Assembly: GCA_937924755.1 (NCBI GenBank) | Contig: CALEVZ010000015.1 | Location: forward strand, 1 to 46,000 | Origin: an uncultured bacterium | GTDB taxonomy: Bacteria; Acidobacteriota; Thermoanaerobaculia; Thermoanaerobaculales; Thermoanaerobaculaceae | Reading direction: 5' to 3' | DNA length: 46,000 nt | Shown here: in pieces, positions 1 to 21,455 of the stretch | How positions within the stretch are numbered: position 1 is the stretch's first letter | Layout: the number at the start of each line of letters is the position of its first letter | Notes under the pieces: model-generated | Database searches by the model: none | What the model was told of the DNA's origin: nothing | What the model saw: only the letters and a program-made list of their open reading frames with translations | Program-made: the position numbers and the translations under genes

Positions 1-700
1 CCTGGGCGTTCTCCAGACTGGTCAGCACCCACTCGTAGTACATCGCCCGCCGCTCGTCGGCGGTGACCCGCTGCTTCCACTCGTACTCGCGCACGGCAAA
101 GCGCAGCACCACGTAGAGCGCCGGCAGCGTGGACAGCGCCAACGCCAGCGGGATGGCCACCCCGAAGCGCAGCAGGACCACCAGCATGGCCGCCAGCGTC
201 AGGCTGTTCTGGGCGATGGAGCCGACGTTCTCGAGCAGCGCCATGGGGCGGCTTGCGACGTCCCAGCGGATGCGGTGCAGCAAATCGAAGTACTCGGGCG
301 ATTCGTAAAAGGCCAGATCCGCCGCCACCGCCCGCTCGTGCACCAGGGAGGCGATGTGGTCCCGCACCATCTCCGACAACGCCGTGCGCACCCACCGGAT
401 CACCGCCGCCAGCACCTCGCCGAGCAGCAATACCGCCGCCATGAGCACGGCATAGAGCAGCGGCTGCGCGAGGTTTTCCCATTCCGCCCCGGAACCCGCC
501 GCCGCCACCAGGCTGTCCACCAAGGCGCGGGTGAGGTAAACCACCGCCACCGGTAACACCCCCTGAACGGCCAGGAGCATCGCCCACGCCGCCGTCAACC
601 GCGGCGCGAAGCGCGCCACCAGGGCTATCGCACGTGCCGTCTCCCGGCCCCGTCGCCGCGCCTCGCTGACCCTGGCCGCCAGGAATCGTCGCCCGCTCAT
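1..700 (-). CDS. ABC transporter, transmembrane domain (partial, C-terminus beyond left edge)
   Basis: The visible 233 residues start at an ATG whose ATGA overlaps the stop of the upstream sulfotransferase gene, so translation is probably coupled. They form the N-terminal half of an ABC exporter membrane domain. There are hydrophobic segments at about residues 35-57 and 82-103, a cytoplasmic-loop-like stretch with YESPEYFDLLHRI near residue 150, and another hydrophobic pair at about 180-215. The YESPEYFDLLHR pattern is typical of fused permease-ATPase exporters found with RiPP clusters; the ATPase domain would lie outside the window. As the last visible gene of the lasso operon it is the obvious candidate for exporting the mature peptide (the D component). 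The exporter family is clear; the lasso substrate is inferred from position. Confidence 0.85.
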   Translation of the reverse strand, partial: MSGRRFLAARVSEARRRGRETARAIALVARFAPRLTAAWAMLLAVQGVLPVAVVYLTRALVDSLVAAAGSGAEWENLAQPLLYAVLMAAVLLLGEVLAAVIRWVRTALSEMVRDHIASLVHERAVAADLAFYESPEYFDLLHRIRWDVASRPMALLENVGSIAQNSLTLAAMLVVLLRFGVAIPLALALSTLPALYVVLRFAVREYEWKQRVTADERRAMYYEWVLTSLENAQ

Positions 701-1734
701 GGCTGCGGTGTTCCGGTCCCCTTGCCCTGCTCAGCCCCCCGCAGGCCATCCGCGGTTATCCTCGCCGTCTCACCGACATTCACATGCTGATCCGCTAACC
801 CCCGCCGGAGGCCGGTGATGAGCTGAGAAAGGGTTCTCGCCACCCGCCTGCTCACCCCGGCAGCCGGCACCGCCACGGCCTCCCACCACCGCTGCCTCCA
901 CCACCCGGGGCGGGCGTAGCCCAACTCGCACAGCAGGCCGCCCGCCACGCAGTCGAAGTCGTATCGGTCGGCGAGGGAAAACTCCCGGTTCCAACGCCCC
1001 ATCTGCGCCCCCTGGTAGTGCTTCGGGTGAGCAGCCACGGCGGGGTCTGCGGTCCGATGCGCCATCCTCATTGCGTCGTAGCTCAGGCTCCGAACGGTCT
1101 GCTCAAGCCACTCGCGTTTCCACGGGATCCCGCAACCGTCCAGCACGCGCGCCAGCTCCCGCTCGGGGGCTTGACGCAGGGCCTCGTAGCGGACCTCCAC
1201 GTAGCGCCCCTCCAGCGCCGCGGCATCCCGCGCCGCCTGGACGTACCGGGTCCAGAGCTTCGCCCCGTGATAGATTCGCATTTCTCCCAGCACCATGGAT
1301 CGACCCGCCCGGCGCAGGGACGCTGCCACGTCGCGACCGTCACGGATGATGTGCACGAAGCGGGAGTCCGGCAGAAAGCGATCGATCAGGCTGACGTGCG
1401 GGGAGTAGGCGGGTTGCTTGTCGAGCAGGAAGCGGCAGCCGCTCTTGCGGGCGGCAACCGCGCGATAGACCTCCTCGACAAAGCGGGCAAGCCACTGCTC
1501 TGCCCACGTCTCGCCGAGAACGAAGGCCAACCCCTGCGGTACCTCGTGCTGCCGCAGTTTCTTTTCGAACTCCCACTTTTCCAACCAGGGGGCGACGTAG
1601 TGATGGAAGACGGTCAGCTCCACTGTGGTGGCGACGAGGGGGTGCGTTCCCAACAGCGCTTGCAGCCAGGTCGAGCCCGAGCGCGGCGAACCGATGATGA
1701 AAATCGGCGTCACCCCCAAATTCACCGCCACCAT
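697..1734 (-). CDS. Sulfotransferase in the lasso operon
   Basis: This 345-residue cytosolic enzyme should transfer sulfate from PAPS to a hydroxyl or amine. The 5'-phosphosulfate loop is GSPRSGSTW at residues 15-23. The 3'-phosphate-binding stretch is FVHIIRDGRDVAASLRR at about 126-142, with the conserved Arg and Asp. LDKQPAYS near 104-111 fits the family pattern. A good Shine-Dalgarno (AAGGGAAGG) precedes the ATG. It sits between the HprK-like kinase and the ABC transporter and overlaps the latter by 4 bases, so it belongs to the lasso operon rather than to the distant polysaccharide genes. A peptide substrate, for example the single Tyr of the predicted core, is an inference; a carbohydrate substrate remains possible. 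Confidence 0.88.
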   Translation of the reverse strand: MVAVNLGVTPIFIIGSPRSGSTWLQALLGTHPLVATTVELTVFHHYVAPWLEKWEFEKKLRQHEVPQGLAFVLGETWAEQWLARFVEEVYRAVAARKSGCRFLLDKQPAYSPHVSLIDRFLPDSRFVHIIRDGRDVAASLRRAGRSMVLGEMRIYHGAKLWTRYVQAARDAAALEGRYVEVRYEALRQAPERELARVLDGCGIPWKREWLEQTVRSLSYDAMRMAHRTADPAVAAHPKHYQGAQMGRWNREFSLADRYDFDCVAGGLLCELGYARPGWWRQRWWEAVAVPAAGVSRRVARTLSQLITGLRRGLADQHVNVGETARITADGLRGAEQGKGTGTPQP

Positions 1735-1791: not shown

Positions 1792-2763
1792 TCAATTCCC
1801 AATGCATTTCCGCAGAGACGCCCAGGCCCCATCCGGGTCTTCCATCACCTCCCGGCCAAGGTCCACATGGAACGACTCCACCGTACGCACCAGTTGCTCC
1901 AGCACTGCCCATGTGGCCCGGTGCAAGGCCGGGAACTGCCGCGCCAGGTAGGCTGCGCTGGTGGCGAGAATCAAACCGCCGAGGGCCTCCCCCTGGGAAA
2001 TTCGGCGCACCCTCGTCCGGCCCCGACGGCGGTCAATGCGGCAGAGGAGGAGTTTTTGGGGGATGAGCCGAGGGGTGAACACCGTTGGCATGTCGGCACG
2101 GGTCAGAGTCGCCCGCGCCCCTGGAGAGGTTTCGGCTGAGCACCGACGGTGCTCCGGCGGCAGGATGATCGCCGTCGCTGACCGCAAGTGCACGTCGCGC
2201 CTCAATGGCGCCACCTGGATCGTCTCTGCCTGCCTCCACACCAGCAAGCTGTCATCGGAGACGATACGCCCGCCCTGGCGAATTGCCAGCGTTGCCAGGG
2301 TGGACTTGCCCGAATTGCTGGCTCCCGCGCACAACCACCCGTCCTCGCCAACCTCGAAGGCGGCGGCATGCAGCGCCAGAGCGCCAGCGCTGGCCAGGCA
2401 GCGCAGGAGGGCCACCTTGGTTTGCGCCAGGAGAGCGGCCCCGGCATCCCTGGCCTCCGCCGCGTGCTGCAGCTCAATCACCACCTCTTCCGCTGTCAGA
2501 TCCACGCGCACGGCGTGCCGCTGCACCACCAGGTGTCCATCCCTGATATGAACAGAGAATCTCCCATGGCGCGAACCCGAGGCGGGTCGATCTCCATGGT
2601 TACTCCGCAACACCAAGACCGGTAGGCCGTCGCGACTTGCACGAGGACCCTCCGTGCCCCACGAGACGTACCACTCTTCCGCCAAGGCGGACAGCAGCCA
2701 CTGGGGCAATCCCCTGACAGGTACAACAAAGGTGCCATCGGCGAACGGGATTCGGCTGCTCAT
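1792..2763 (-). CDS. HprK-like serine kinase (lasso-associated)
   Basis: This 323-residue protein resembles the C-terminal kinase domain of HPr kinase/phosphorylase. It has a Walker A loop GASNSGKST at about 147-155 and an acidic SDDS motif at about 169-172. Homologues of this size occur in many lasso peptide clusters, and the paeninodin enzyme is known to phosphorylate the C-terminal Ser of its precursor. Here the predicted core ends in Pro and its only hydroxyl side chains are Ser5, Tyr10 and Thr14, so the target is unclear. No good Shine-Dalgarno precedes the ATG, and a strong hairpin lies about 30 bases upstream of it, so expression may be set separately from the genes before it. A 57-base gap separates it from the sulfotransferase gene downstream. 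Confidence 0.85.
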   Translation of the reverse strand: MSSRIPFADGTFVVPVRGLPQWLLSALAEEWYVSWGTEGPRASRDGLPVLVLRSNHGDRPASGSRHGRFSVHIRDGHLVVQRHAVRVDLTAEEVVIELQHAAEARDAGAALLAQTKVALLRCLASAGALALHAAAFEVGEDGWLCAGASNSGKSTLATLAIRQGGRIVSDDSLLVWRQAETIQVAPLRRDVHLRSATAIILPPEHRRCSAETSPGARATLTRADMPTVFTPRLIPQKLLLCRIDRRRGRTRVRRISQGEALGGLILATSAAYLARQFPALHRATWAVLEQLVRTVESFHVDLGREVMEDPDGAWASLRKCIGN

Positions 2764-3585: not shown

Positions 3586-3717
3586 CTACGGTTCGGTAGC
3601 TGCCCCGTAGACGTCCGGTTCCGAGCCCTCTTCGCCCCGCACCACCTCCTCCAGGCGCCGAACTACAAGAGTTGGCGCAGCGTACACCCGCCGTTGCTTG
3701 CTCTCGTCCTTAGCCAT
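3586..3717 (-). CDS. Lasso peptide precursor, 43 residues
   Basis: This small gene starts 13 bases after the cyclase stop with an excellent Shine-Dalgarno. The leader begins MAKDESKQRRV and carries YAAPTL at residues 12-17, the YxxPxL motif that lasso RRE proteins bind; YAAPTLVVR closely resembles the lariatin leader YNAPSLVQR. The predicted core is GEEGSEPDVYGAATEP (residues 28-43). Gly1 would be joined to the Asp8 side chain to give an 8-residue ring and an 8-residue tail, and no other acid falls at positions 7-9. Tyr12 lies 16 residues before the core, against 17 in lariatin. The usual Thr at leader position -2 is Val here. The core is very acidic (four Glu, one Asp), with one Tyr in an acidic context. 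Neighbouring cyclase, RRE, kinase and exporter genes support the call. Confidence 0.85.
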   Translation of the reverse strand: MAKDESKQRRVYAAPTLVVRRLEEVVRGEEGSEPDVYGAATEP

Positions 3718-3723
3718 CGAAAT

Positions 3724-3730
3724 CCTCCTT
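3724..3730 (-). promoter_or_regulatory. Strong Shine-Dalgarno of the lasso precursor
   Basis: AAGGAGG sits 6 bases before the precursor ATG and directly after the cyclase TGA. It is among the best ribosome-binding sites in the window, which fits a need for more precursor than cyclase from one message. Confidence 0.8.
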
Positions 3731-5632: not shown

Positions 5633-5914
5633 ATGATCGACGCCGAAGCCCTCGCCAGCGCCCTCACCACCGATGAAAAGCTGACCCTCACCGAACTGGC
5701 CGACGGTTCGGGGGTCATCCTCTCCCTGCACAACCGCGCGGTCGCCTCCCTGAACGAGACCGGGCAGTTCCTCGTCAATCTCTTGCGCAGCGGTGTTACC
5801 AAGGAGAAGGAGCTGGTCGCCCGGCTGACCGCCGAGTTCGACGTCGATGAGAGCACCGCCCGCCATGACGTGGAGCACTTCCTGACCGAGCTCGCCCGGC
5901 TGGTGATGCGGTAG
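5633..5914 (+). CDS. PqqD-like RRE protein 1 (lasso B1)
   Basis: This 93-residue protein is the size of PqqD and of stand-alone lasso B1 proteins, which hold the precursor leader at YxxPxL and present it to protease and cyclase. Family features are LADGSGVILSLHNRAVASLNETGQFLVNLL at about 22-51 (beta strands then helix) followed by a helical half with FDVDESTARHDVEHFLTEL. I choose the ATG giving MIDAEALAS, which aligns with the start of the second copy; an earlier in-frame codon would add nine unlikely residues. It diverges from the cyclase gene and has its own -10 box. A weak GGAGAG lies 12 bases before the start. One of a tandem pair. Confidence 0.85.
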   Translation: MIDAEALASALTTDEKLTLTELADGSGVILSLHNRAVASLNETGQFLVNLLRSGVTKEKELVARLTAEFDVDESTARHDVEHFLTELARLVMR

Positions 5915-6127: not shown

Positions 6128-6406
6128 ATGAACCCGATCGAGACCATTGCCAACCTTCTCAAAAGTGGCCGCCTGAGCTGCGCCACCCTGGCCGACGGCA
6201 CCGGAGTGTTACTCCGGCTGGATGGCCTGGAGGTGCTGTCGCTGAACGAAACCGCCCTGTTTCTGGTCCAGGCGATGCGAGAAGGGGCCGCCTCGGAAGC
6301 GGCGCTGGTGGCCAGGCTAGTCAACGCCTTCGAAGTCGATGAGGCCACCGCCGAGCGCGATGTCCAGACGTTCACCCGCCAGCTGGTCACCAGCCTGCGG
6401 CTGTGA
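6128..6406 (+). CDS. PqqD-like RRE protein 2 (tandem paralogue)
   Basis: This 92-residue protein is clearly related to the first PqqD protein: LADGTGVLLRL, SLNETALFLVQAMREG and FEVDEATAERDVQTF match LADGSGVILSL, SLNETGQFLVNLLRSG and FDVDESTARHDVEHF. Shine-Dalgarno GAAGGGA is 7 bases before the ATG. It converges on the nucleotidyltransferase gene, with 46 bases between stops. Only one precursor gene is seen, so the second copy may serve another substrate, another partner enzyme such as the kinase or sulfotransferase, or a precursor outside the window. Confidence 0.85.
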   Translation: MNPIETIANLLKSGRLSCATLADGTGVLLRLDGLEVLSLNETALFLVQAMREGAASEAALVARLVNAFEVDEATAERDVQTFTRQLVTSLRL

Positions 6407-6452: not shown

Positions 6453-7754
6453 CTACCCTTGAGGGCTGAGCTGGTCGTCTCGCCGATCCCAGAACGACCG
6501 CCCCCGCAGACGCCGTGCACGGAGTCGATAACGCAAGTACATCCGCACATGCCGGAAAAACCTGCGAACCAGATCCAGCGGTCGCCACAGCCGCAGCACC
6601 AGATAGCCCAGTCGGCTGGAGCGGGTGCCGTAGCGCCGGTTCATCTCGCTGCGGGAGATCAGCAAGGCACTGGCCAGCCGGCGTGGCACGAACCACAGAC
6701 CGCGGTCGCCGGGGGCCGGGCGAAAAAGCGCGAACAGGCGCAGGGAATCCGCGTACCCGCGGTCCAGGGCGGAGGCCACCACGTGCCGCAGGAGCAGCGC
6801 GGCGGGTGCCGACTGCTGGTCGGAGAGGAGCTCGGGCACCCGGCCGCTGGCAAGGCTATGGGCGAGGTGAACCGCCGCCTCTACCTCCTGCACCGAGACC
6901 ACGTCGCGAATCCACTGGTAGCCCGCGCCCATGAACACGTCCTGCTCGGCGGGAGAAAAGTCCAGATCCAGGAGATCGGCAACCATGCGGAGCAGCGGGT
7001 ACCGCCAGGGCCGCAACGCGTTCTGGTCGATGCCGTGGGCGATGGCGTGGGCCAGGAGGAGTTGGCGGGCCAGCACGAAGCATTCCCCCGGCAGCTCCGG
7101 CCGGCGCTCCAGCATCCCGGCGGCGTGTAGTTCGGAGAAGGTGGCCGCCGTGGGGTTCCCCGGCGGGCACAGGCGCAGCGCCCGGGAGTGAACCTCCACG
7201 GTCACGCCGCGGAACATCGCCGGCAGCTGGTAGAAACGGATTCGCGTGGTGGGGAGAAAGAATCCTCGTCTTTCCAGGGCCCGCTGGAAGCTCGCGGCCG
7301 CCTCCTCGGGCACCAGGAGGTCCACGTCGGCGGCGCGGCGGGTGCCCAGCGCCACCGCGCCCTGCAGGTGCAACGCGACGAACTTCAAGAACAGCAGGGG
7401 CACACGCTCGGCCGCGGCGATCTCTGCCAGCAGGCTCGCCATACCGGCGACGCGGGCCATCTCGGCCGCCGCCTGGTGATACACCTCCACCAACTGCGCC
7501 GCCACGTCTTCGCCCACCTCCCGCGCCAGCTCACCGGCCGGATTTCGCCCTGCGATTCGCGCGGCCACATCCAGGCGGCGGGCCATGGCGAGGGCTTTGG
7601 CACCGTCCAGACCCTCCCAGGGCAGTCGGCCGGGGGGGGCGAAACCCCGACACAGCACCCAGTAGAGCTCCGCCGGTGCCTCCAGCAAGGGGGGCTGGAA
7701 ACGCAGCCCGGCGAGTTTGCCATTACGCATCTGGCACCCGCGCGGCCTCTTCAT
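6453..7754 (-). CDS. Nucleotidyltransferase-family protein (NTP_transf_5-like)
   Basis: About 433 residues. The middle holds LKFVALHLQGAVALGTRRAADVDLLV (about residues 145-170), the G-x-R-x-x-x-D-x-D pattern of this nucleotidyltransferase fold, with the two Asp that would bind metal. The start ATG follows GGAGCGGTG; an ATG eight codons later is an alternative. It overlaps the end of the sugar transferase gene, so it is transcribed with the polysaccharide genes. However, this family is common in lasso clusters together with HprK-like kinases, and it converges on the PqqD pair, so it may work with the peptide genes. The C-terminus is basic and rich in Arg. The transferred group and acceptor are unknown. 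Confidence 0.8.
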   Translation of the reverse strand: MKRPRGCQMRNGKLAGLRFQPPLLEAPAELYWVLCRGFAPPGRLPWEGLDGAKALAMARRLDVAARIAGRNPAGELAREVGEDVAAQLVEVYHQAAAEMARVAGMASLLAEIAAAERVPLLFLKFVALHLQGAVALGTRRAADVDLLVPEEAAASFQRALERRGFFLPTTRIRFYQLPAMFRGVTVEVHSRALRLCPPGNPTAATFSELHAAGMLERRPELPGECFVLARQLLLAHAIAHGIDQNALRPWRYPLLRMVADLLDLDFSPAEQDVFMGAGYQWIRDVVSVQEVEAAVHLAHSLASGRVPELLSDQQSAPAALLLRHVVASALDRGYADSLRLFALFRPAPGDRGLWFVPRRLASALLISRSEMNRRYGTRSSRLGYLVLRLWRPLDLVRRFFRHVRMYLRYRLRARRLRGRSFWDRRDDQLSPQG

Positions 7755-8415
7755 CACCGCTCCAGGGCGGCGCCTCCCGCATCAGTTCCGCCAGCGACGG
7801 CGGTGGGAACATCGCCGGTCGAAGGACCGCCAAAACAGTGATGAGGATCGTCTTCAGGTCGCTCCGCCAGCTTCTCGTGCGGAGGTAGTCGCAGTAGCGT
7901 CGCAGCTTGTAAGGCTGCAACACGTTGCGATAGAAGCTGTCGCGCTCGCCGGGAACCGATGCCATCAGTTCCTCCTCGTTGCGGAGTGTTATGGTCACCG
8001 GATCGGTCAACCCGGGGCGCACCGAAAGGACTTGCTTCCACAGCGGGTGCGAGGGGTCGACCAACGATGGCACCTCCGGCCTAGGCCCCACCAGATCCAT
8101 CTCCCCCCGCGCCACGTTCCACAGCTCCGGCAACTCGTCCAGCTTGAGCCGGCGAAGGTATCGCCCCACTGGCGTGATGCGGTTATCGTCGCGGGATGTC
8201 ACGAGGGGCCCCTCGCTACCTACTCTCATTGTACGGAACTTGAGCATCCAGAACAACCGCCCCCCCAGACCGACCCGCTGTTGTCGAAAGAGAATCGGCC
8301 CCGGCGAGGAGAACCGCACCAGTATTGCCGTCCCTGCCAGCAGCGGACTGACCAGCAGCAAGGCCGCCCCGGCCACCGCCACGTTTACCCACCGGGGAAA
8401 CCCGGCCGCCGCCAC
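7723..8415 (-). CDS. Initiating sugar-1-phosphate transferase (PglC/WcaJ catalytic core)
   Basis: At 230 residues this has the short, PglC-type form with one N-terminal membrane segment (about residues 11-33), not the five-helix WbaP/WcaJ form. Motifs are FRQQRVGLGGRLFWMLKFRTM (start of the catalytic core) and DELPELWNVARGEMDLVGPRPE (acid and Pro-Arg-Pro signature). It would load the first sugar phosphate on undecaprenyl phosphate at the inner membrane and so start repeat-unit synthesis for the Wzx/Wzy system encoded here. It starts 3 bases after the aminotransferase stop and overlaps the downstream gene. Confidence 0.92.
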   Translation of the reverse strand: MAAAGFPRWVNVAVAGAALLLVSPLLAGTAILVRFSSPGPILFRQQRVGLGGRLFWMLKFRTMRVGSEGPLVTSRDDNRITPVGRYLRRLKLDELPELWNVARGEMDLVGPRPEVPSLVDPSHPLWKQVLSVRPGLTDPVTITLRNEEELMASVPGERDSFYRNVLQPYKLRRYCDYLRTRSWRSDLKTILITVLAVLRPAMFPPPSLAELMREAPPWSGDEEAARVPDA

Positions 8416-8418
8416 CCG

Positions 8419-9576
8419 TCACCTCCGGTGAAGCGTCACGATATCCCCGACTGCCTCGATGACATCCTCCACATCCTCCTCGGTCAATCGGGGGTGGAGG
8501 GGCAGGCTGACCAGCCGCCGAAATTCCCCGGCCGCCGTCGGAAACGACTCTTCTGCATAGTGGTAGCGCTCGCGGTAGTAGGGATGCATGTGCACAGGGA
8601 TGAAATGCACCGATGCGCCGATGTTGCGCCTCCGCAGCTCTTCGATGAACCTGGCGCGATCGATCTGCAGCCTCTGAAGGTGCAATCTGAGCACGTACAG
8701 GTGCCACGCCGACTCCATCCCTTCCCGCTCCACCGGCACTTCCAGCTCGGGAAGGGTGGAGAACGCCTCCGTATACCTGGCCACGATCTCCCGGCGTCGG
8801 CGCTGGAAGGCGGGGAGCCTGGCCAGCTGGTGCAGACCCAGGGCCGCCTGGATGTCGGTCATGTTGCACTTGAAGCCCGGTACCACCACCTCGTAGTACC
8901 AGGACCCCTCCGCCGAATAGCGCTTGTAGGCGTCCCGGCTCATGCCGTGCAGACTCCACAGGCGACACTTCTCCAAGAGTTCCGGCGCTCCGGTGAGCAT
9001 TCCCCCTTCGGCGGTGGTGAGGTTCTTGGTGGCGTAGAAACTGAACGCGGTCAGGTCCCCGATGGTGCCGATCATCCTGCCCAGGTGGCGGGCCGGCAGC
9101 GCGTGCGCCGCATCCTCCAACAGCAAGAGGCCATGCTTGCGCGCCAGGGGCACCAGTGACCCCATATCGCACGGGTGGCCGTACAGGTGCACCGGGATGA
9201 TCGCCTTCGTCCTCGGCGTGATGGCCGCCTCCACCGCTGCCGGGTCGAGGTTGAGGGTGTCTCGCTCCACGTCCACCAGCACCGGCGTCGCACCCACGTG
9301 CTCGATGACGTGGACGGTGGAGCAGAACGTCATGGTCGTGGTGATCACCTCGTCCCCCGGCCCGACGCCGGCGGCGGCCAGCCCCACCAGCATGGCGCTG
9401 GTGGCGGAGTTCACCGCCAGCGCCTCCTCCGCTCCGATGAAGCGAGCGAACTCCTTTTCGAAGCGGCGTGTCTTCGGCCCGGTGGTGATCCAGTCGCTGC
9501 GCAGGGTATCGACGACCTCGGCGATCTCCTCCTCACCCAGGCACGGTGGCGAAAAACTCAAGAACGACTCGCGCAC
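8419..9576 (-). CDS. DegT/DnrJ/EryC1/StrS aminotransferase
   Basis: This PLP enzyme of 385 residues should aminate a keto sugar nucleotide. DEVITTTMTFCSTVHVIEHVGATPVLVD is a typical cofactor and substrate region, and the Schiff-base Lys lies in SFYATKNLTTAEGG. It starts with GTG after GGAAGGAAA. It is directly upstream of the initiating transferase gene, which suggests that it makes the amino sugar (for example a 4-amino-4,6-dideoxy sugar) used as first residue. No dehydratase is adjacent; LegB farther upstream in the locus makes a suitable 4-keto sugar, but its dedicated partner is LegC. Confidence 0.88.
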   Translation of the reverse strand: MRESFLSFSPPCLGEEEIAEVVDTLRSDWITTGPKTRRFEKEFARFIGAEEALAVNSATSAMLVGLAAAGVGPGDEVITTTMTFCSTVHVIEHVGATPVLVDVERDTLNLDPAAVEAAITPRTKAIIPVHLYGHPCDMGSLVPLARKHGLLLLEDAAHALPARHLGRMIGTIGDLTAFSFYATKNLTTAEGGMLTGAPELLEKCRLWSLHGMSRDAYKRYSAEGSWYYEVVVPGFKCNMTDIQAALGLHQLARLPAFQRRRREIVARYTEAFSTLPELEVPVEREGMESAWHLYVLRLHLQRLQIDRARFIEELRRRNIGASVHFIPVHMHPYYRERYHYAEESFPTAAGEFRRLVSLPLHPRLTEEDVEDVIEAVGDIVTLHRR

Positions 9577-9634
9577 TTTCCTTCCCGTCTCCCTTTCTCG
9601 GCCTGCGGCGCTGCTGCCGCCGTCCCCAGGCAGT

Positions 9635-10726
9635 TCATCGAGTTAGCTCCTGCTGCGCTCGCGCAGCTTCGATGCCACCGGTGATGGAAGCCAGTAGGCC
9701 CTCCAGAAACCCGATGCCGTACCCCAGGTGGAGACAACCGAAGACCAGCGGCAAGACCGGCAAGAACCGCCAACCGGAAGCAGCCGCCGCATGCATACTC
9801 GCCAGCAGGTTGACCCCAATATAGGAGACAGCCACTCCGCCACCGACGGCGAGCGTGCCCAGCGCCAGACCGGCGGTGGGGGCCCCGGCCAACGCCGCCG
9901 CGCCCAGGACCAGCGCCAGGGAAGGAAGCCCCAGCAGCGCCAGCACGAAGGCGGCCGGTACCAGGTGTCGAGGTGAGGCCGGCAGACGGTGTTTGCGGAT
10001 GACCGGCACCTTCCAGTAGCCGTACTGGCGGTACTGCTGGAAAAGCTGCGAAAGCCGCCGACGGGGCGAGTACCAACTGCGGAGCTCGGGGGTGTGCCAG
10101 ATGACTCCACCGGCGCGGCTGAGCCGCAGATTGAGCTCGTCGTCCTGGTTGCGCACCAGCGTCTCGTCGAAGAGCCCGATACGGTCGAAAACCTCCCGTC
10201 GGTACACGCCGCCGAACACGGTATCCGAGGGCCCATCCCACGCCGGGTTGTGCCAGCGCGAGCCGCCGACGCCGAAGGGGTGATGGAACGCCACCGCCAC
10301 CGCCTTTTGCACGTAGGTGGTCCCGTCAGCGAACATCGACCCCCCGACGTTGTCCACCTCGGGCCGTCGGTCGAGAAACGCCACCGCCCGGGCGAGGTAA
10401 TCCTCCGCGTAGCGATTATGGGAGCCCATGATGGCGATGTAGCGCCCTCGGCTGGCGAGAATGCCCAGGTTCATGGCAACCGGGGTGATGCGCCGGGGGT
10501 TATCGACGACGTGCAGCCGAGCATCTTCCTGAGCCAGTCGCTGCAACACCTCTCGCGTCCCATCGTCGGACATCCCATCGACCACGATCACCTCATAGCC
10601 GCCCTCGGGCGGCACCTGCGCCAGCACCGAGCGGACAGCAGCCTCGATATGGCCTGCCTCGTTGCGGCAGGGAAGGACCGCCGAGATGGCCGGCGCGGCC
10701 TCGCCTCCATCAGCTGTGCGAGCCAT
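9635..10726 (-). CDS. Family 2 glycosyltransferase with C-terminal membrane segments (ExoA-like)
   Basis: The start giving MARTADGGEAAP puts the GT-A fold at the N-terminus: AVLPCRNEAGHIEAAVRSVL, VDGMSDDGT (nucleotide-binding Asp), then a middle region with DDELNLRL. Three or four hydrophobic segments follow from about residue 265, ending GCLHLGYGIGFLEGL. The arrangement matches succinoglycan ExoA-type enzymes, which add a sugar to a lipid-linked intermediate at the inner membrane. It overlaps the end of the GNAT gene by 17 bases. Longer in-frame starts give low-complexity, unlike residues and were rejected. Confidence 0.88.
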   Translation of the reverse strand: MARTADGGEAAPAISAVLPCRNEAGHIEAAVRSVLAQVPPEGGYEVIVVDGMSDDGTREVLQRLAQEDARLHVVDNPRRITPVAMNLGILASRGRYIAIMGSHNRYAEDYLARAVAFLDRRPEVDNVGGSMFADGTTYVQKAVAVAFHHPFGVGGSRWHNPAWDGPSDTVFGGVYRREVFDRIGLFDETLVRNQDDELNLRLSRAGGVIWHTPELRSWYSPRRRLSQLFQQYRQYGYWKVPVIRKHRLPASPRHLVPAAFVLALLGLPSLALVLGAAALAGAPTAGLALGTLAVGGGVAVSYIGVNLLASMHAAAASGWRFLPVLPLVFGCLHLGYGIGFLEGLLASITGGIEAARAQQELTR

Positions 10727-11411
10727 TCGGGCGATGGCGGGGAGACCAGCCGGGCGAGCCCGACTCGGAATCGAACACCTTGTACCAGGAGATGTACCCG
10801 TGGGCATCCTCATACAGAGGCTGCCACCCCAAACTGGCCAAGATCCGGCTCGCAGGAATGTTGTCCTGGTGGGTGATGCACCGCAAGCTGCGGGCATTGG
10901 TGGCCGTTCGGCACTCCTCCTGAAACCCCCGGTACAGGCGGGCGCCCAACCCGAGACCGCGGGCGCGCTCGGCCAGCCCTATCCCCACTAAACACACGGT
11001 CGGCTCTGGGACCTGAACCGTCTCCGGCGGCGTTGAGCGGCGACGCAGCAGGACGCGAAGCCTGCCCACGAGCGCTCCGAGAATCTCCCCATCGAGGAAA
11101 AGTCGCGGACGAGCGAGCAGGCAGCGAACCACGGTGGGCGCCAGATCCCGGTTGAACTTGCGCTGGTATCCCATGGGGGCGCCGACGGCAAAACCGAGGA
11201 GCTCACCCTCCACCCACGGCCCCAGGGTGACGGCGGTGGGCTCAGCGATAAACCAGCGCAAATAGGCGCGGGCGTACGGCGCGCCCAGCCTTCCGGAGCG
11301 GGACGAGCCGAACGCCTCCAGGTAGATCTCGGTGGCGCGGCCCACGTCTTGCAGCTGCAAACGTTGTAGCGCCACCTGCCTCGCCGATTTGTCCTCCCTT
11401 TTCAACACCAT
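10710..11411 (-). CDS. GNAT-family N-acetyltransferase
   Basis: This protein of 233 residues has the acetyl-CoA pyrophosphate-binding stretch ERARGLGLGARLYRGF (R/Q-x-x-G-x-G/A) and the C-terminal NIPASRILASLGW pattern common to GNATs acting on amino sugars or amino acids. A purine-rich GGAAAGGGGG precedes the ATG. Within the operon it lies between a sulfotransferase and a glycosyltransferase, so acetylation of an amino sugar made by a DegT enzyme is the likely job; the substrate cannot be read from the sequence. Confidence 0.82.
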   Translation of the reverse strand: MVLKREDKSARQVALQRLQLQDVGRATEIYLEAFGSSRSGRLGAPYARAYLRWFIAEPTAVTLGPWVEGELLGFAVGAPMGYQRKFNRDLAPTVVRCLLARPRLFLDGEILGALVGRLRVLLRRRSTPPETVQVPEPTVCLVGIGLAERARGLGLGARLYRGFQEECRTATNARSLRCITHQDNIPASRILASLGWQPLYEDAHGYISWYKVFDSESGSPGWSPRHRPNGSHS

Positions 11412-11438
11412 CCCCCTTTCCTTCTCGTGGCGATTCGA

Positions 11439-12377
11439 TCAGGTGAATTGATAGTTGTAGCGCGCCAGCTCACCCTCCCACAGCGCGTAGCTCTCGGGGC
11501 ACAGGCGCTCGGCCAGCGCCGGGGCGGCGCGCCGCACCGTCGCCATGCTCACCCGGGACGGGGCCGGGAAGAGGCGGTGAATCACCCGCCGCTCCAGCCG
11601 GGTCAGAACGTGGCGGGAGCGCCTGCGGTTAGCGCCCAGGTAGTTGAGAAAGCGCATGAGAGCGCAGGACAGCGCCGAAAAGGACGGGTTCTCCCTGGAG
11701 TAGGAGCGGGCATCCTGGTGGGGTATCAACGCCTCGGGGCCGAGCCCTTCCACCCGCAAAAACCCGAACAGCAGTTCAAAAAACCTGCCGGGCTCTCGCC
11801 GCATCATCTCCTGGGGAAGCGCCAGCACCTGCTCGGCGCCGAACACTCGCCGGTAGTAGTCGTACAGAGACCGGTAGTCCAGCCGCACGGCAATACCGGC
11901 CCCGGGGTAATTGATGACGTCAGCCAGGATGGACGCCAGACTATCGGCGCTGCCCTGCTTGACCATCTGGTTGTACATCGAGGACAGGTAGGCGAGAGGA
12001 TGGCGGAAGACCATGAACACGCGCACGGGCCCCAACGCCTCGTGCAGGCGGTCGGCCACCGCGAAGGCGTTGTGGCCGGTGACGAAGTGACCCGCCAGCC
12101 GCTCGTTGGAGATTCCCACCAGTCGGTCCCCAGCCCCCTGGGTCGCCAACAACTCGAAAAACCGCCTCGCCCAGGCAGAACTCCAGCGGCGCATATCCAG
12201 GACCCCCACCTCCTCCCGCCACAGGCGCTCGATGTGGGTATCCAGCTCCCTGGCGTGCCCGTGGGTGCCGAATATTCTCAGCCGGGGATGGGCGGGGAAC
12301 ACCGTCGTCTGTAAGAAACTCGAGCCCGTCTTGGCCAGTCCGATATGGACGAAATGCACCTGGCCGGTCGCCGTCAC
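11439..12377 (-). CDS. Sulfotransferase, adjacent to glucuronyl C5-epimerase
   Basis: I use the GTG preceded by GGGAGGTGA, giving 312 residues. The PAPS 5' loop is HIGLAKTGSSFLQ near residues 10-22 and the 3'-phosphate site is VFMVFRHPLAYLSSMYNQ. It is a paralogue of the sulfotransferase at 34389-35309: both share VHIGLAKTxSxFLQ, VFPAHPxL, GHxVTGxxAFxVADRL, and an end like WxGxLARxNYxF. It follows the C5-epimerase gene by 25 bases, so a uronic acid or amino sugar in the same polysaccharide is the likely acceptor. Position (2-O, 3-O, 6-O or N) cannot be told from the sequence. Confidence 0.87.
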   Translation of the reverse strand: MTATGQVHFVHIGLAKTGSSFLQTTVFPAHPRLRIFGTHGHARELDTHIERLWREEVGVLDMRRWSSAWARRFFELLATQGAGDRLVGISNERLAGHFVTGHNAFAVADRLHEALGPVRVFMVFRHPLAYLSSMYNQMVKQGSADSLASILADVINYPGAGIAVRLDYRSLYDYYRRVFGAEQVLALPQEMMRREPGRFFELLFGFLRVEGLGPEALIPHQDARSYSRENPSFSALSCALMRFLNYLGANRRRSRHVLTRLERRVIHRLFPAPSRVSMATVRRAAPALAERLCPESYALWEGELARYNYQFT

Positions 12378-12402
12378 CGCCTCACCTCCCCAGCCGCCAT
12401 CC

Positions 12403-13491
12403 TCATCGCCGCCACCGACGAAGCAACCGGGCCGCGTTGTCCCCCAGCCCGCGCAGCACTCCGTACGAGCGGGCGGCCCCGATGACGTCTCCAGCTTTCC
12501 ACCCCAGGTACCAGCTGGCCAGGCGCAGGCGGTTGATCCGGTCGGCGAGAGTCCGCTCCCACACGTCGGCCACGCCGGCGAAGTAGCCATCCCCGGTCAT
12601 CCCGGCCAAGATGCGCAGATGACAGACGTGCACGATGTGGTAACGAGCCTGGAAGAGCGGCCGCTGACCGTGCTCGTGGCGCAGGTCGTAGGAGCTGCAA
12701 AAGGGGAAGTGATAGGCCATCAGATTGCCCCGGATGGTGGCCACGCCTTCGTCGAAGACTCGCCGCGGCAGCTCGTCCCCCGTCACCTTCCACAGGTCGT
12801 ACACGCCGAACAGTGCCGCCATCATGCCGTTGAGGGTGTGGTGCTGCCTGCCCTCCTCGAAAAAGGCGTACTCCTCGAAAAACACCCCGCGGCGTGGATC
12901 GACGCAGCGCACGCCTCCATTGGCGATCTCCTTGAGGAAAACGCCCAGGGCACTTCTGGCGGTGGCGAGGAAGCGTTCGTCACCGCTCTCCTCCCAGGCG
13001 CGGCAAAGCACGGCGATCGCCTGCCCCTGCCCCATGGCCGACAGCCACGGCGCCCGTTGATCGGGGAAAAACGTGGCGTGGTATGGCCAGGTAGCTGTAC
13101 CGTCCGCTTGCCGCACTGCGCCGCGGACCAGCGCCTCGGCCACGCGCAGGAGCTCTTCCCGGTCCTCGGCCCGCCCCTCGGCCAGGTAGCGCTCGTAGTG
13201 CGCCAGGGCGTGATGGGCCGACTTGGTGGGGTGGAGCCAGGGCGCCCCCCGCGGATGCTGGCGGTAGAGTACCCCGCCGTGCTGATCCCGCTCCCTGGCC
13301 TCGCCCAGCTTGGCCAGCAGACTGACGTAGTAGGGGCCGAGCCGGCGCGCGTTGAGATACGATGTGTTGACCACCTTGGAGGGTGGTACCGTCACCGAGC
13401 GGTAGGCCCACACCAGGGCCCCGGCCCAGCTCGCCAGGACTCCGGCGACCACGATTGCCGCCCCTACCGCCACCCACCCCACCGCGGTCAC
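12403..13491 (-). CDS. D-glucuronyl C5-epimerase-like protein
   Basis: The start is a GTG overlapping the deacetylase stop as GTGA; the 362-residue product has one N-terminal membrane anchor (about 6-28) and an (alpha/alpha) barrel-type domain. It shares the strongest blocks of animal heparan sulfate C5-epimerase: WLSAMGQGQAI at 149-159 (animal WYSAMAQGQAI), EEY at 206-208, LNGMMAALFGVYDL at 220-233, YDLRH at 268-272 and RYHIVHVCHL at 283-292 (animal DYHTTHINQL). The three Tyr in these blocks correspond to those proposed as catalytic. It should turn D-glucuronate into L-iduronate within a polymer or lipid-linked chain. Bacterial homologues acting on heparosan are known. The membrane anchor suggests action at the inner membrane. 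Confidence 0.88.
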   Translation of the reverse strand: MTAVGWVAVGAAIVVAGVLASWAGALVWAYRSVTVPPSKVVNTSYLNARRLGPYYVSLLAKLGEARERDQHGGVLYRQHPRGAPWLHPTKSAHHALAHYERYLAEGRAEDREELLRVAEALVRGAVRQADGTATWPYHATFFPDQRAPWLSAMGQGQAIAVLCRAWEESGDERFLATARSALGVFLKEIANGGVRCVDPRRGVFFEEYAFFEEGRQHHTLNGMMAALFGVYDLWKVTGDELPRRVFDEGVATIRGNLMAYHFPFCSSYDLRHEHGQRPLFQARYHIVHVCHLRILAGMTGDGYFAGVADVWERTLADRINRLRLASWYLGWKAGDVIGAARSYGVLRGLGDNAARLLRRWRR

Positions 13492-14357
13492 CTCTGCTCC
13501 CCACTCGCCGCTGCGGCGGGTGGCGCGACGGCGTCCTTCTCCAGGTGAGCAACCACATCCCGACAGGAACAGAACTCCCAGCGGCGGCGGTGGAGCTCCT
13601 GGATCAGCCAGCGGTACCACCGGTCCAGGGGGTCGAACGCCGGGTCGAAGTACACGTCGTGAAAGAGCACCGAGACGTGGTGCAACCCCGCCGCCTCCGC
13701 CTGCCCCAGCCGGGCGAGGGTGAACTCCTGGGCCTGCCGGAGGGTGCGGTTGACCACCCGTGAGTTGTTGCGGAAGGTGTACCCGTCGGTGATCAGGATG
13801 GGCAGCTCCCAAAGGCCACCGACACGGTAGGGATCGCGGACCCCGTAGGTGTTACTGCAGTAGGCAAACCCCGCCTGAGCGAACAGGGGGGCATAGGCAT
13901 CGGTCAGCCGTCCGGCGTTGTCCACCATGCCCACGTTGTGCAGCCGCACCCCCAGCACCGGCGAGCCGGTGATCTCCTCCAGCCGCTGGCGCTCCCACCG
14001 GATACGCTCCGGCCGATCAAAGGCGATGGCGTGCAGGCCGACCTCCAGCCCCTGCTCCAGCACCCGTGCGATCCACGGGCGCGCCCGGCGCGGCCCGTAG
14101 GCCAGGTCCCTGCCCCGGCCGGTGGCAAAAAAGAAGGTCGCCGGCACCCCGTGCTCGCGGTTGAAGGCCAGCAGTGCCTCCAGGTTGTGGGCGCGGTTGG
14201 CGGCCAGGCGCCGAAGTTTGCGCATCAACGCCCTCCCCGACGAGCTCCCCCGCACCGCCTCCACCACCCCGCGTAGGAGGAACTTAGGCACGGCGGCGTC
14301 GCGCCAGTGCTCGGCGAAGGTGAGGTGGTCCACGTCGTGGGAAACCACTACCTTCAT
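13488..14357 (-). CDS. Polysaccharide deacetylase-like protein
   Basis: The ATG giving MKVVVSHDVDHL overlaps the upstream glycosyltransferase stop as ATGA; 289 residues. SHDVDH at 6-11 supplies the metal and base acids of the deacetylase fold, ATFFFATGRG is a typical second strand, and EVGLHAIAFDR holds the metal-binding His of motif 2 in altered form. LFHDVYFD near the C-terminus fits the last motif. Directly before a glucuronyl C5-epimerase gene it is well placed to remove acetyl groups from GlcNAc or GalNAc and so free amines for sulfation. Some proteins in this subgroup have unknown substrates, so the reaction is likely but not certain. Confidence 0.82.
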   Translation of the reverse strand: MKVVVSHDVDHLTFAEHWRDAAVPKFLLRGVVEAVRGSSSGRALMRKLRRLAANRAHNLEALLAFNREHGVPATFFFATGRGRDLAYGPRRARPWIARVLEQGLEVGLHAIAFDRPERIRWERQRLEEITGSPVLGVRLHNVGMVDNAGRLTDAYAPLFAQAGFAYCSNTYGVRDPYRVGGLWELPILITDGYTFRNNSRVVNRTLRQAQEFTLARLGQAEAAGLHHVSVLFHDVYFDPAFDPLDRWYRWLIQELHRRRWEFCSCRDVVAHLEKDAVAPPAAAASGEQR

Positions 14358-15535
14358 CGGGCCTTCGCCGCCGACGGCGCGACCTCGGGCAGCAGCGTGC
14401 GGTAGAGGGCCAAGAGCTTGGCCTCCTCCCGATCCCAGTTGAAGCGCTCCCGCACCGCCCGCCGCCCTCGCTCGCCCATCTCCCGCCGCAGCTCGGGGTG
14501 GTTCCTCAGATGCTCGATCGCCGCCGCCACTGCCGGCGGGCTGGCAGGATCCACCACCATGCCGTAGCCGAACTCCTCCACCTGTCGGCGCAGCTTGGGG
14601 AAATCCGAAACCAGCACCGGAACCCCCACCGACAGGTACTCGAACACCTTCACCACGTACTCCACCTCCAGATAGGCACGCACCGGCTGCAGCAGCGCCA
14701 CCCCCAGATCGGCGTTGGCCAGATGCCCGGCCACCTGGGACCACGGCACCCGCCCGTGGAGCAGCACCCGCGGATGGGCGCGCAGCCTCGCCCCCAACGG
14801 CGTCTCGGGAATGTCGCCAATCACGTGCAGAACCACTTCACCCGCCAGCAGATCCAGGGCGTCCAACAGCACTCCCAGCCCCCGGGCCTGGGTGACGCCG
14901 CCGACGTAGGTGATGCGAAACTCTGCAGTGGTGCGAACGCGCCGCGCCCCCTCCCAGAACAAAGATGACGGAAAATTGGAGACCACCACCGGTCCACTTT
15001 TTGCAAAACGCGACTGCAGATGGCTGTCGACCACCACCACCCCGCTGAGCAACCGGCTGGCGGCCACCTCGACGTCGCCCCAGACTGCAGCCACAGTCCG
15101 CCCAATCGCTCCCCAGCGAGAGAGGCGGTCTTGGACTTGCGCCTTCACATCCTCGTGCACGTCATACACTACCTTACGGCCGAGGACCCGGAGCAGCAGA
15201 CCCACCAACAGCAACTCCGGTTCATGAACGTGATACACGCGCGCCCTCGCCCGCACTGCCTGTCGCAGCGCCTTTACTGCACGAACCGCTCGCGACGGCA
15301 TCGCTGCGCTCGTGGGCAGGAGCGGCACGATGGTGACACCGCACCGCGTCTCTGGCGAGCCATGGAGGCCGACAACGGTCACCGCGAATCCTGCGCGGGC
15401 CAAAGAAACCGCCTCACTGTCGAAGATCCGGTTGTCGGTGGCGCGGTGCGTCGTCGAAAGGTGACAGACGTCGGCCGACGCCCTCCTCCCCTGCACTGGC
15501 GTCACCTGGCCTGCACGACGGGTTGAGCCGGTCAT
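14354..15535 (-). CDS. Family 4 glycosyltransferase
   Basis: The ATG giving MTGSTRRAGQ overlaps the preceding gene as ATGA; 393 residues. The GT-B fold is seen from the N-terminal half (CHLSTTHRATDNRIFDSEA, YHVHEPELLLVGLL) and the C-terminal donor half (RITYVGGVTQARGLGVLLDAL, KVFEYLSVGVPVLVSDF with the Glu of the EX7E-like region). DNRIF after HRATD is typical of this subgroup, in which the donor is often a UDP-sugar. It should add one sugar of the repeat unit at the cytoplasmic face of the membrane. Confidence 0.88.
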   Translation of the reverse strand: MTGSTRRAGQVTPVQGRRASADVCHLSTTHRATDNRIFDSEAVSLARAGFAVTVVGLHGSPETRCGVTIVPLLPTSAAMPSRAVRAVKALRQAVRARARVYHVHEPELLLVGLLLRVLGRKVVYDVHEDVKAQVQDRLSRWGAIGRTVAAVWGDVEVAASRLLSGVVVVDSHLQSRFAKSGPVVVSNFPSSLFWEGARRVRTTAEFRITYVGGVTQARGLGVLLDALDLLAGEVVLHVIGDIPETPLGARLRAHPRVLLHGRVPWSQVAGHLANADLGVALLQPVRAYLEVEYVVKVFEYLSVGVPVLVSDFPKLRRQVEEFGYGMVVDPASPPAVAAAIEHLRNHPELRREMGERGRRAVRERFNWDREEAKLLALYRTLLPEVAPSAAKAR

Positions 15536-16641
15536 CGCCTCGTTGCCATGGCTCCGATGCCATCGTTGACGACGCAGAAAAGATCCTGGCAGAGCGAAGT
15601 CGTCGCCGATGCGTCGCAGGCGTAGGGCCCCTTGATCTGCAATCCGGGCAACTCTGGGAGACGACCGCCTTTCATCCGGAAAGGAATGAACGGTGATCGA
15701 CCTCGCTCGACCGTTGGAACTGGGGTTGCACCCGCGCGAGTGAGAAGGCCAAGAATCACCTCGGCGTTCGCCCGCCTCGCCTCCTCCACCTGTCCCAACC
15801 GACGGATTCCCACCAGCGCCCGCGCCAGCGAAATCCGCCGAATCGGCCGCGGATCCAGGCCGTAGTGCCCCCGACAGCGCGAATACTCCAGGCGCGGCGC
15901 TGCTGTCAGGCGGGACCGACCGCGCAGTACCCGCATCAGATCGCGCAGCGTGCGACGCACCTGGTTGATGTGGACGCCCCACATGCGGAGCTCATCCTCG
16001 AGGCGATGCATCCAGCGGCCGCGAACCATCCGCAGCGACACCCCGTCCCCACGCACCAGGACCGCCCCTCCCATGGCCCCCAGCACGTTCTTCTGGTTGA
16101 AGCTGACGACCACGGCGCAACGGGCGTCGACCTCGGCTGGCGACGGGCAGATGAGGTTCTGGCACTCGTCAAGAATCACCAAGAGGTCGGGTCGGCGGGC
16201 CCTGATCCTCGCCAGCGACTCGGCGGAGCAAGCAACGGCGCCGAAGATCGAGGCGAGAATGACGGCGACGGTTTTGGCGTCAACGATCTTACGTTCGATG
16301 AACTGCAGATCTGGCAGAAGCGTCTCGCTAACCGGCACCGCCTCGGGGACCAGGCCCGCGAAGCGGACGGCTTCCGGGACGACGTTGCAGATGTACGCGG
16401 GTACCAACACGGTACCACCGGGATGCTCCTGGGCCAGTTCAACCAACACGGCGGACAGGGCGGATCGACCGGAACGGAAGAAGCGGACAATGAATGCTCC
16501 GTTGGCGAGGCAGTCCTGTAACTCCCGGGCGACAGCGCGTTCCAGCCAGCGCCGGGGGGCGAAGGCCAGCGCCGTTGCCTGGCCCTGCTCCCCTAGCCGG
16601 CGAAACAGTGCCGCGGCGACCGGCAGCCTTGCGGCGTTCAC
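15532..16641 (-). CDS. DegT/DnrJ/EryC1-like PLP-fold protein
   Basis: The GTG start overlaps the preceding stop as GTGA; 369 residues. VLVPAYICNVVPEAVRFAGLVPEAVPV is the usual N-terminal pattern of DegT-type aminotransferases, VILDECQNL holds the cofactor Asp, and SFNQKNVLGAMGGAVLV holds a Lys in the Schiff-base position. It is more divergent than the other two DegT proteins in the window and its middle section is longer and basic. An amine-forming role on a sugar is likely, but the poor match leaves another PLP-dependent reaction possible. Confidence 0.75.
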   Translation of the reverse strand: MNAARLPVAAALFRRLGEQGQATALAFAPRRWLERAVARELQDCLANGAFIVRFFRSGRSALSAVLVELAQEHPGGTVLVPAYICNVVPEAVRFAGLVPEAVPVSETLLPDLQFIERKIVDAKTVAVILASIFGAVACSAESLARIRARRPDLLVILDECQNLICPSPAEVDARCAVVVSFNQKNVLGAMGGAVLVRGDGVSLRMVRGRWMHRLEDELRMWGVHINQVRRTLRDLMRVLRGRSRLTAAPRLEYSRCRGHYGLDPRPIRRISLARALVGIRRLGQVEEARRANAEVILGLLTRAGATPVPTVERGRSPFIPFRMKGGRLPELPGLQIKGPYACDASATTSLCQDLFCVVNDGIGAMATRR

Positions 16642-17858
16642 TGGTCTCGCTCGGCCTTGCCCGGGGCAAGCTGTCCGGCCCACTCGAGAATGCGCGCCGC
16701 GCGGCTGTTCACGTCAAACTCTCGTGCCCGCGCGGTTGCTGCGGCTGCCTGGCGTGCCCGCAGCCCGGCGTCCTCCCTCAGGCGCACGATCGCAGCTCGC
16801 AGATCCCCTGCGTCGTGGGGCTCGATCAGGATGCCCACCTCGTTATCGACCACGCCCTCGTTGAACTCGCGTCGGGACGCGATTACCGGCAAGCCACAGG
16901 CCAGCGCCTCGAGGATGGCGTTGCTGCACCCCTCGGCGGTGCTGGGCAGGGCAAAGATATCGCACGCCGCCAGGTACTCGGCGACCCGACGATGGGGCAC
17001 CGGTCCCCAGAAGGCGATGGCCGGCTCGGGCGGACGGGCCATCCCCGACCCCAGAAAGACCCCCGCCACGCCGGGCAGGTCGCGGATGGCCGACAGCACC
17101 CGCAGCACCCCCTTGCGCTCGCTGAACGCGCCCACGAAGGCCACCAGGGTGAGGTCGGCCGGTAACCCCAGACGAGCTCGCATCTGACCGCGGTTGCGGG
17201 GGTGAAACACGCTCAGGTCCACGCCGTTGGGCGAAAGGAGAATACGGTCCTCCCCCACTGCCAGTTGCGTCAGAAGGGCGCGTTGCACCGGTCGGGAGAC
17301 GGCGATGAAGCCGGCGGCGCCAGCCAGGAGAGGCCTGGCGTAGGTAAGCCCCAGGGGACGCAGGGTCCACAGGAGATTGCCGTCGTCCCCGTCCACCGAC
17401 TCCCCCACTCCCACCACCGCCCTTGTGGCCAGGGCCCGGCCCGCCGCCACGGCGGCGATCCCCGGCAGGGCCAGGAAGTGCCCGTAGATGAGGTCCGGGC
17501 GCAGACGGTGACGGCGCAACGCCCGCTGCACCGCGGCGCTGAACCCCGCCTGGGTGAGGCGGGCCAGGCGCAGCGGGCCGATTTTCTTCGCCCCCCACGA
17601 AACGAAACGGGGGCGCAACACCGTCAGCCCGTGCCGGTCGCCTTCCCAAGCGTCCTCTGCCACTCCCCCCTTTGCCCGTCGCCGGAGGGCGGGGAGGGGG
17701 TTGACCACGGTCACGCTCACTCCGCAACGGGCGAAGGCGGCCGCCAGCTCGGCCACGAACGCCCCCGCCTGGGGCTGCCTGGGGGAGGGAAAGCCCCTGG
17801 CGATCATCACCAGGGAGCGCACCCCGGGCGGCTGCTCTCCTGCCCGGCCCTCACCCAC
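16638..17858 (-). CDS. Family 4 glycosyltransferase
   Basis: A GTG start overlaps the ATP-grasp gene by 8 bases; 406 residues. N-terminal SLVMIARGFPSPRQPQAGAF and the C-terminal half (LSPNGVDLSVFHP, FVGAFSERKGVLRVLSAI, DIFALPSTAEGCSNAILEAL with the EX7E motif, GLPVIASR) are classic GT4. It should add a sugar to the growing lipid-linked repeat unit. The EGCSNAILEALACGLPV block is among the clearest motifs in the locus. Confidence 0.92.
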   Translation of the reverse strand: MGEGRAGEQPPGVRSLVMIARGFPSPRQPQAGAFVAELAAAFARCGVSVTVVNPLPALRRRAKGGVAEDAWEGDRHGLTVLRPRFVSWGAKKIGPLRLARLTQAGFSAAVQRALRRHRLRPDLIYGHFLALPGIAAVAAGRALATRAVVGVGESVDGDDGNLLWTLRPLGLTYARPLLAGAAGFIAVSRPVQRALLTQLAVGEDRILLSPNGVDLSVFHPRNRGQMRARLGLPADLTLVAFVGAFSERKGVLRVLSAIRDLPGVAGVFLGSGMARPPEPAIAFWGPVPHRRVAEYLAACDIFALPSTAEGCSNAILEALACGLPVIASRREFNEGVVDNEVGILIEPHDAGDLRAAIVRLREDAGLRARQAAAATARAREFDVNSRAARILEWAGQLAPGKAERDQ

Positions 17859-18984
17859 CGTCGGCCACGCCTCCCCGTCGTGCGGTCAGAGAGCAAACCA
17901 CCCACCGCAGCGCCAGCGGCAGACGAGGCACGCAAACGGTCCGGCGGGACAGGAGGTAGGGAAGAACCCGCACGTCGCCGCGCATCAGCCGGTACAGCGC
18001 ATAAATGCCATTCACCCAGTAACGCGGCGTCACGGTCCCTGCGGGGGGGGCGTCAGCCGGTGGCGACCCCAGGCAGCGCCGAACCGGGCCGTCGCCGGTG
18101 GCCGCCTCCACCAGCGCATGCTGCATCCAGAAGCGCGGGTTCAACTCGATGACGTGATAGCGGCCGCTCGGGGCATCCAGCACGAATTCCAGTTCGAAGG
18201 GGCCCTCGAAGGCCAGCTCGTCCAATAGCCGAGAGGTGACCCGGTCCAGCTCGGGCATCGCCGGCAGCACCTCGCAGACGTCCCCGTTGCCGGTGCGCGG
18301 GGGATGCTGCAGCACCTTGCGAGTGGTCAGGTACTCCCGCACCCCGGGTCCGTGCCACCCCCCCACCGAGACGTTGTGGCGCGGAGCGACACTCAGCAAC
18401 TCCTGGTAGCACCAGGCCTCGCGATCCAGCCCCTGCTCCTCGAGACGCCGCTCCAGGGCGGCAAGCTCGGCCCTGGAGCCCACCACCCGGGCGCGCGGCA
18501 GCTTCGCCAGCCCCTGCCAGCTCCGCCGTACCCGCAGCAGGAAGCGGTCGCCAAAGGCGCGCCACGGATCCTCGCTGGAGGGGATGGTGCGCGGCGTCTC
18601 GGCTAACCGGCGAGAAGCGAGGAAGTGACAGAAGAGCTGGCGATCCAGGATGGTATCCAGATGCGCCGGCGACCCCACAAAGACCCGCACCGCCGACGTC
18701 GCCCCCCCGCCGTGGTGGGGGGCCAGGACGTAGTGAAAGCGCTCGTCGGTGAGGAAGACCACCGGCTCGCCGCCGCGGCCAGCCAGCCACGGCAGCAGAT
18801 CCGCCGGGGCCTGGAAATCCACCTCGACCACCCGGACCTCCGGAGCGGCGGTCTCGATCAGGACGGGACCCTGCGCCCGCGGCTTCACCGCCATGATCTC
18901 GCCAGTCCACCCCAGCCGCCGCAGCGAGCCGACGATGCTGACGGCGTTCACGTACGTGCCACAGAGGACGGCGCGAGCGGTCAT
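17851..18984 (-). CDS. ATP-grasp family ligase 1
   Basis: The ATG giving MTARAVLCGTY overlaps the Wzy-like gene stop as ATGA; 377 residues. The N-terminal third resembles a Rossmann-like pre-ATP-grasp domain. FLLRVRRSWQGLAKLPRARVV would be the ATP-binding lysine strand, WCYQELL the adenine hinge, and FELEFVLDAPSGRYHVIELNPRFWMQH carries the metal-binding Glu, Asn and Arg of ATP-grasp enzymes. These join a carboxylate to an amine or thiol. In a polysaccharide operon with uronic acids it may attach an amino compound to a sugar carboxylate; that is inference. Confidence 0.78.
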   Translation of the reverse strand: MTARAVLCGTYVNAVSIVGSLRRLGWTGEIMAVKPRAQGPVLIETAAPEVRVVEVDFQAPADLLPWLAGRGGEPVVFLTDERFHYVLAPHHGGGATSAVRVFVGSPAHLDTILDRQLFCHFLASRRLAETPRTIPSSEDPWRAFGDRFLLRVRRSWQGLAKLPRARVVGSRAELAALERRLEEQGLDREAWCYQELLSVAPRHNVSVGGWHGPGVREYLTTRKVLQHPPRTGNGDVCEVLPAMPELDRVTSRLLDELAFEGPFELEFVLDAPSGRYHVIELNPRFWMQHALVEAATGDGPVRRCLGSPPADAPPAGTVTPRYWVNGIYALYRLMRGDVRVLPYLLSRRTVCVPRLPLALRWVVCSLTARRGGVADGG

Positions 18985-21451: not shown

Positions 21452-21455
21452 CGTA

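Follow-up and report, generated by a model that had tools for sequence, protein, structure and literature searches.

The ring of a lasso peptide joins core residue 1, which is Gly (or Ala, Ser or Cys), to an Asp or Glu at core position 7-9. Among the described systems, the bsf cluster of Bradymonas sediminis was studied by Duan et al. in 2023, and the ring of BsfA was assigned to Gly1-Asp8 (PMC10368454). BsfK, a homologue of HPr kinase, acts on the linear precursor with the aid of B1 and phosphorylates core residue Ser3, and B2 cleaves the BsfA leader, which has Ile at position -2; replacing this Ile with Val almost abolished cleavage (PMC10368454). Leaders with Ile or Val at -2 are found in Acidobacteriaceae, Bradymonadales and Sphingomonadales, where a kinase or phosphotransferase gene accompanies them in every case, and the published positions of the leader Tyr, Pro and Leu are -17, -14 and -12 (PMC10368454). 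Earlier work noted genes for sulfotransferases and HPr kinases in further lasso clusters (PMC4289311, PMC8498205). A kinase gene is common to the paeninodin/pseudomycoidin type of Bacillota, whose kinases modify the C-terminal Ser. A sulfotransferase gene is present in some clusters of this type (PMC8498205).

The window, which is the whole stretch of 46,000 nucleotides analysed here, starts at a contig end and has a small gene that very probably encodes the precursor of a lasso peptide. It comes from an Acidobacteriota lineage whose nearest named relative is Thermoanaerobaculales and which is known here solely from metagenome-assembled genomes. The lasso class itself is already known, and this gene adds to it a precursor that the library models miss.

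The precursor gene and its neighbours

The 43-codon frame had been predicted to have a perfect Shine-Dalgarno sequence, a YxxPxL leader motif and a core with Gly1 and Asp8, and the sequence bears out all of these (Table 1). The cyclase gene lies upstream, with its stop codon 13 nt before the precursor start, and the ATG of the exported-protein gene lies 45 nt downstream. The GC content per codon position of the precursor gene (0.77/0.45/0.70) is coding-like. Its 132 nt exceed the usual minimum of Prodigal, which is 90 nt. A pattern search for a second precursor in the window found none.

The minus-strand genes run in the order cyclase, precursor, exported protein, HPr-kinase-like protein, sulfotransferase and ABC transporter, and two PqqD-type genes and an NTP_transf_5 gene lie on the far side of the cluster. 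Several features of a lasso cluster are present, with a cyclase beside the precursor, a YxxPx[LIV] motif together with a B1 gene, and Gly1 with Asp8. The kinase keeps the catalytic residues named by Duan et al. (PMC10368454). The first 141 bases of the window recur unchanged at the end of contig C73 (L101:7537-7677), and the window's contig, C15, thus joins C73 through the ABC transporter gene. C73 completes this gene, which is followed, as read by eye, by a polysaccharide-type epimerase gene, and the cluster is therefore taken to end on C73.

Table 1. Features of the lasso peptide cluster in the window
Feature	Position	Strand	Basis or remark
Lasso precursor gene (A), 43 aa + stop, MAKDESKQRRVYAAPTLVVRRLEEVVR|GEEGSEPDVYGAATEP (leader|core)	3586..3717	minus	position and translation; equivalent small frames in relatives
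Shine-Dalgarno AGGAGG	3729..3724	minus	6 nt ahead of precursor ATG
Precursor leader	3717..3637	minus	
YxxPxL leader motif (YAAPTL)	3684..3667	minus	ten residues ahead of core Gly1
Core GEEGSEPDVYGAATEP	3636..3589	minus	predicted ring Gly1-Asp8
Precursor stop codon	3588..3586	minus	
Cyclase (C), asparagine-synthetase-like, 610 aa	3731..5563	minus	Pfam PF00733; NCBIfam NF033535; alignment
Exported protein, 228 aa, N-terminal signal-like segment	2854..3540	minus	
HPr-kinase-like protein (K)	1792..2763	minus	His, Walker GxxxxGKS and Asp-Asp intact
Sulfotransferase (PF13469)	697..1734	minus	stop overlaps ABC gene start by 4 nt
ABC transporter (D), N-terminal part	1..700	minus	remainder on contig C73
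PqqD-type RRE protein (B1), first copy	5633..5914	plus	divergently oriented
PqqD-type RRE protein (B1), second copy	6128..6406	plus	
NTP_transf_5 family protein (N)	6453..7757	minus	present in G007 cluster too

Conservation near homologous cyclases

A search of the genome contigs with the single cyclase gave no matches, and an alignment of four cyclases recovered the relatives described here. Homologous cyclases are encoded in G007 (PKYI01000008.1), G118 (JALOLD010000069.1, Thermoanaerobaculales), G292 (JACQZU010000026.1) and L015 (JAKALX010000257.1, labelled Chloroflexi). They are about 28-35% identical, and the clusters are distant. The kinase, B1, B2 and ABC genes are all present in the G007, G118 and G292 clusters. 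The alignment-based search covered 396 genomes and gave two true members at 865-920 bits, against 216 bits for the next match; the many remoter matches are presumably ordinary asparagine synthetases. A search of 77 genomes from the order to which G292 belongs yielded no additional member.

Small frames near the five cyclases have the same design. From leader position -3 to the core they read VVR|GEEGSEPDVYGAATEP in the window, AVR|GNTGSFTDGDPAGFHVG in G007, VVA|GGSPTGVRDGLRTLRKG in G292, AIA|GGTGPTKEPVVEPGAPDMMA in G118 and AVR|GAGGSKPDTNGYPNQA in L015. In each of them exactly ten residues separate YxxPx[LVI] from a Gly, and this Gly1 is accompanied by Asp or Glu at core position 8 or 9. The predicted ring closes at Asp8 in the window, G007 and L015, at Asp9 in G292 and at Glu8 in G118. 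Leader residue -2, counted from Gly1 as the core start, is Val in four clusters and Ile in G118. A motif scan of about 95 loci gave few matches beyond these five clusters. The original prediction had proposed looking for the same small gene beside homologous cyclases, and its appearance near four of them shows that the gene is real. Its reading as a lasso precursor is likewise well supported by the conserved position, motif and core. The small frames at L007 and L070 (..KSGPNPDASPANPTRP and ..GKSGEEPDGAPTEFKF) look similar and were not counted, because they lack a Gly1 core at consistent spacing.

Some of the arrangements differ in detail. The G292 precursor is in phase with its cyclase, with no stop codon between them (L013:8030-10033), and it is possible that this frame is a cyclase-precursor fusion or begins internally, at an ATG with GGAG ahead of it. 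At L015:2518-5341 the cyclase and the precursor are separated by a transposase-like gene and an exported-type protein that ends in a segment similar to IPTL-CTERM sorting tails. In G378 (L123:3338-3860) three consecutive small frames lie beside an asparagine-synthetase-like gene; they have YxxPx[LV], Ile at -2, an acidic residue at core position 8 and a spacing of eleven residues.

The HPr-kinase-like, NTP-transferase-like, ABC transporter, sulfotransferase and two B1 genes place the cluster near the lasso group with Ile or Val at -2 and a kinase. Like the bsf/Acidobacteriaceae group it has a YxxPxL leader, Val or Ile at -2, Gly1 with Asp8, an HPr-like kinase, split B proteins and a C-terminal residue other than Ser. 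Unlike the bsf group, the window has Ser5 rather than Ser3, a sulfotransferase, an exported protein, and two B1 genes with no B2 in the cluster. It also differs in its leader. Counted from Gly1, Tyr, Pro and Leu are at -16, -13 and -11 in all five clusters, so the motif appears to sit one residue nearer the core than published, which is a new point. The canonical spacing would place Glu, Asn, Gly, Gly and Ala at core position 1 across the five clusters; it suits the ring rule less well, and the ten-residue spacing is therefore preferred. Because of this shift the clusters are classed as related to the Ile/Val(-2) group and not as standard members of it. A nucleotidyltransferase gene is shared with pseudomycoidin.

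Maturation and alternative readings

The locus is best explained, with high confidence, as encoding the precursor of a 16-residue lasso peptide, made through B1, K, B2, C and D steps. The gene, its leader motif, its conserved placement and the intact kinase motifs are established; the steps themselves, the threading, the modification sites and the identity of B2 are inferred. Either or both of the PqqD-type B1 proteins (5633-5914 and/or 6128-6406) would bind the YxxPxL leader. The HPr-kinase-like protein would then phosphorylate a hydroxyl of the linear precursor. Ser5 is the likeliest site, since it is the sole Ser/Thr within the predicted ring and the C-terminal residue of the core is Pro, which excludes a C-terminal Ser modification of the paeninodin type.

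The peptide may also be a substrate of the sulfotransferase, with Tyr10 as one conceivable site. There is a considerable chance, though less than even, that this enzyme has the neighbouring exopolysaccharide as its substrate instead of the peptide, as perhaps does the NTP transferase; this would be compatible with the precursor reading. The cluster adjoins a polysaccharide locus that includes glycosyltransferases and a D-glucuronyl C5-epimerase, and the sulfotransferase is absent from all relatives analysed. However, its gene overlaps that of the lasso ABC transporter, and the occurrence of sulfotransferase and HPr kinase genes in other lasso clusters (see above) also argues for a role on the peptide.

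For the lasso pathway, a B2 protease would cut after Arg27, and its identity is the weak point. No B2 gene was found in the cluster or past the join of C15 and C73, which is a further new point, and the genome, which is 97% complete, gave no orthologue of the G007 B2. The sole B2 above the family cut-off, and thus the sole candidate, is in a separate PqqD-B2 pair (G000:C37:92259) that has the expected Cys and His residues. This pair stands alone, with no cyclase in the fetched flanks (L001:1080-1833). Since the change of Ile(-2) to Val in BsfA was so damaging to cleavage, the Val(-2) precursor would need a matching protease. The pathway is either incomplete or served in trans by the C37 pair. 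It is unlikely that the cluster is decaying, having lost its own B2 and left the precursor without a working pathway. B2 adjoins B1 in G007, G118 and G292, and here a second PqqD copy lies next to B1 with no B2 found, as decay would have it, but all other frames are open, the kinase motifs are intact and the C37 pair exists.

After cleavage, the cyclase would join Gly1 to Asp8 around the tail. A precursor that is bound and cyclised could instead give an unthreaded product, either a simple macrolactam or another RiPP of an asparagine-synthetase-like enzyme. Topology is not readable from sequence, the cluster is without a dedicated B2, and the cyclase scores 90 bits against the lasso cyclase model NF033535, below its cut-off of 525. 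This is nevertheless quite improbable, as the B1, C, D, K and N genes here, with B2 in three relatives, match lasso clusters, and the ring rule holds in five of five cores. It is hardly credible that the small frame between the two genes is an ORF by chance: it is short and its 43 residues match no Pfam or NCBIfam model, but when the 190-nt gap was put through 20,000 dinucleotide shuffles, a looser version of the leader motif arose in just 10 of them, and four relatives with cyclases of only about 30% identity have equivalent frames.

The ABC transporter of the proposed lasso pathway would export the product to the location of the exported protein. The five clusters might form a small lasso subfamily, found in Acidobacteriota and in one MAG labelled Chloroflexi, whose leader is shorter by one residue between motif and core and whose ABC-exported, possibly phosphorylated and sulfated peptide acts jointly with a dedicated, fast-evolving exported protein; this reading as a whole is tentative and rather doubtful. 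The subfamily raises the questions of whether B1 and B2 tolerate the one-residue shift of the motif, whether a B2 can act in trans, and what role the exported protein has.

The exported protein and the acidic core

The exported-protein gene immediately follows the precursor in the window, G007 and G292. The G007 and G292 proteins are 25-27% identical to that of the window, and the pairs align well above shuffled controls. A profile of the three has matches in two of 396 Acidobacteriota genomes, which are the two with this type of cyclase. G118 has the cyclase and lacks the exported protein. Searches of Pfam, NCBIfam, AlphaFold and Foldseek gave no family and no reliable fold; the AlphaFold model is poor (mean pLDDT 51.7), and the Foldseek matches, many of them jelly-roll, were set aside for their low TM-scores. 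We know of no such co-encoded exported partner in characterised lasso systems. This fast-evolving protein beside the precursor in three clusters is a new point.

The core GEEGSEPDVYGAATEP has five acidic residues among its 16, namely four Glu and Asp8, and no Lys, Arg or His, as the original prediction had stated. Its suggestion that this sets the core apart from characterised lasso peptides is not supported. The paeninodin core, AGPGTSTPDAFQPDPDEDVHYDS, has six Asp/Glu, no Lys/Arg and one His in 23 residues. The [M+2H]2+ computed for that core, 1209.504, agrees with the reported value of 1209.50 (PMC5067487). The acidic core is not unprecedented and is no strong novelty. The cores of the relatives range from mildly acidic to net basic (GGSPTGVRDGLRTLRKG being net basic), so the acidity is particular to the window peptide and is not a family trait.

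The polysaccharide locus that adjoins the cluster (window 8422-23414) encodes a DegT aminotransferase, glycosyltransferases and an O-antigen ligase-like protein, and its D-glucuronyl C5-epimerase-like protein is encoded at 12406-13851.
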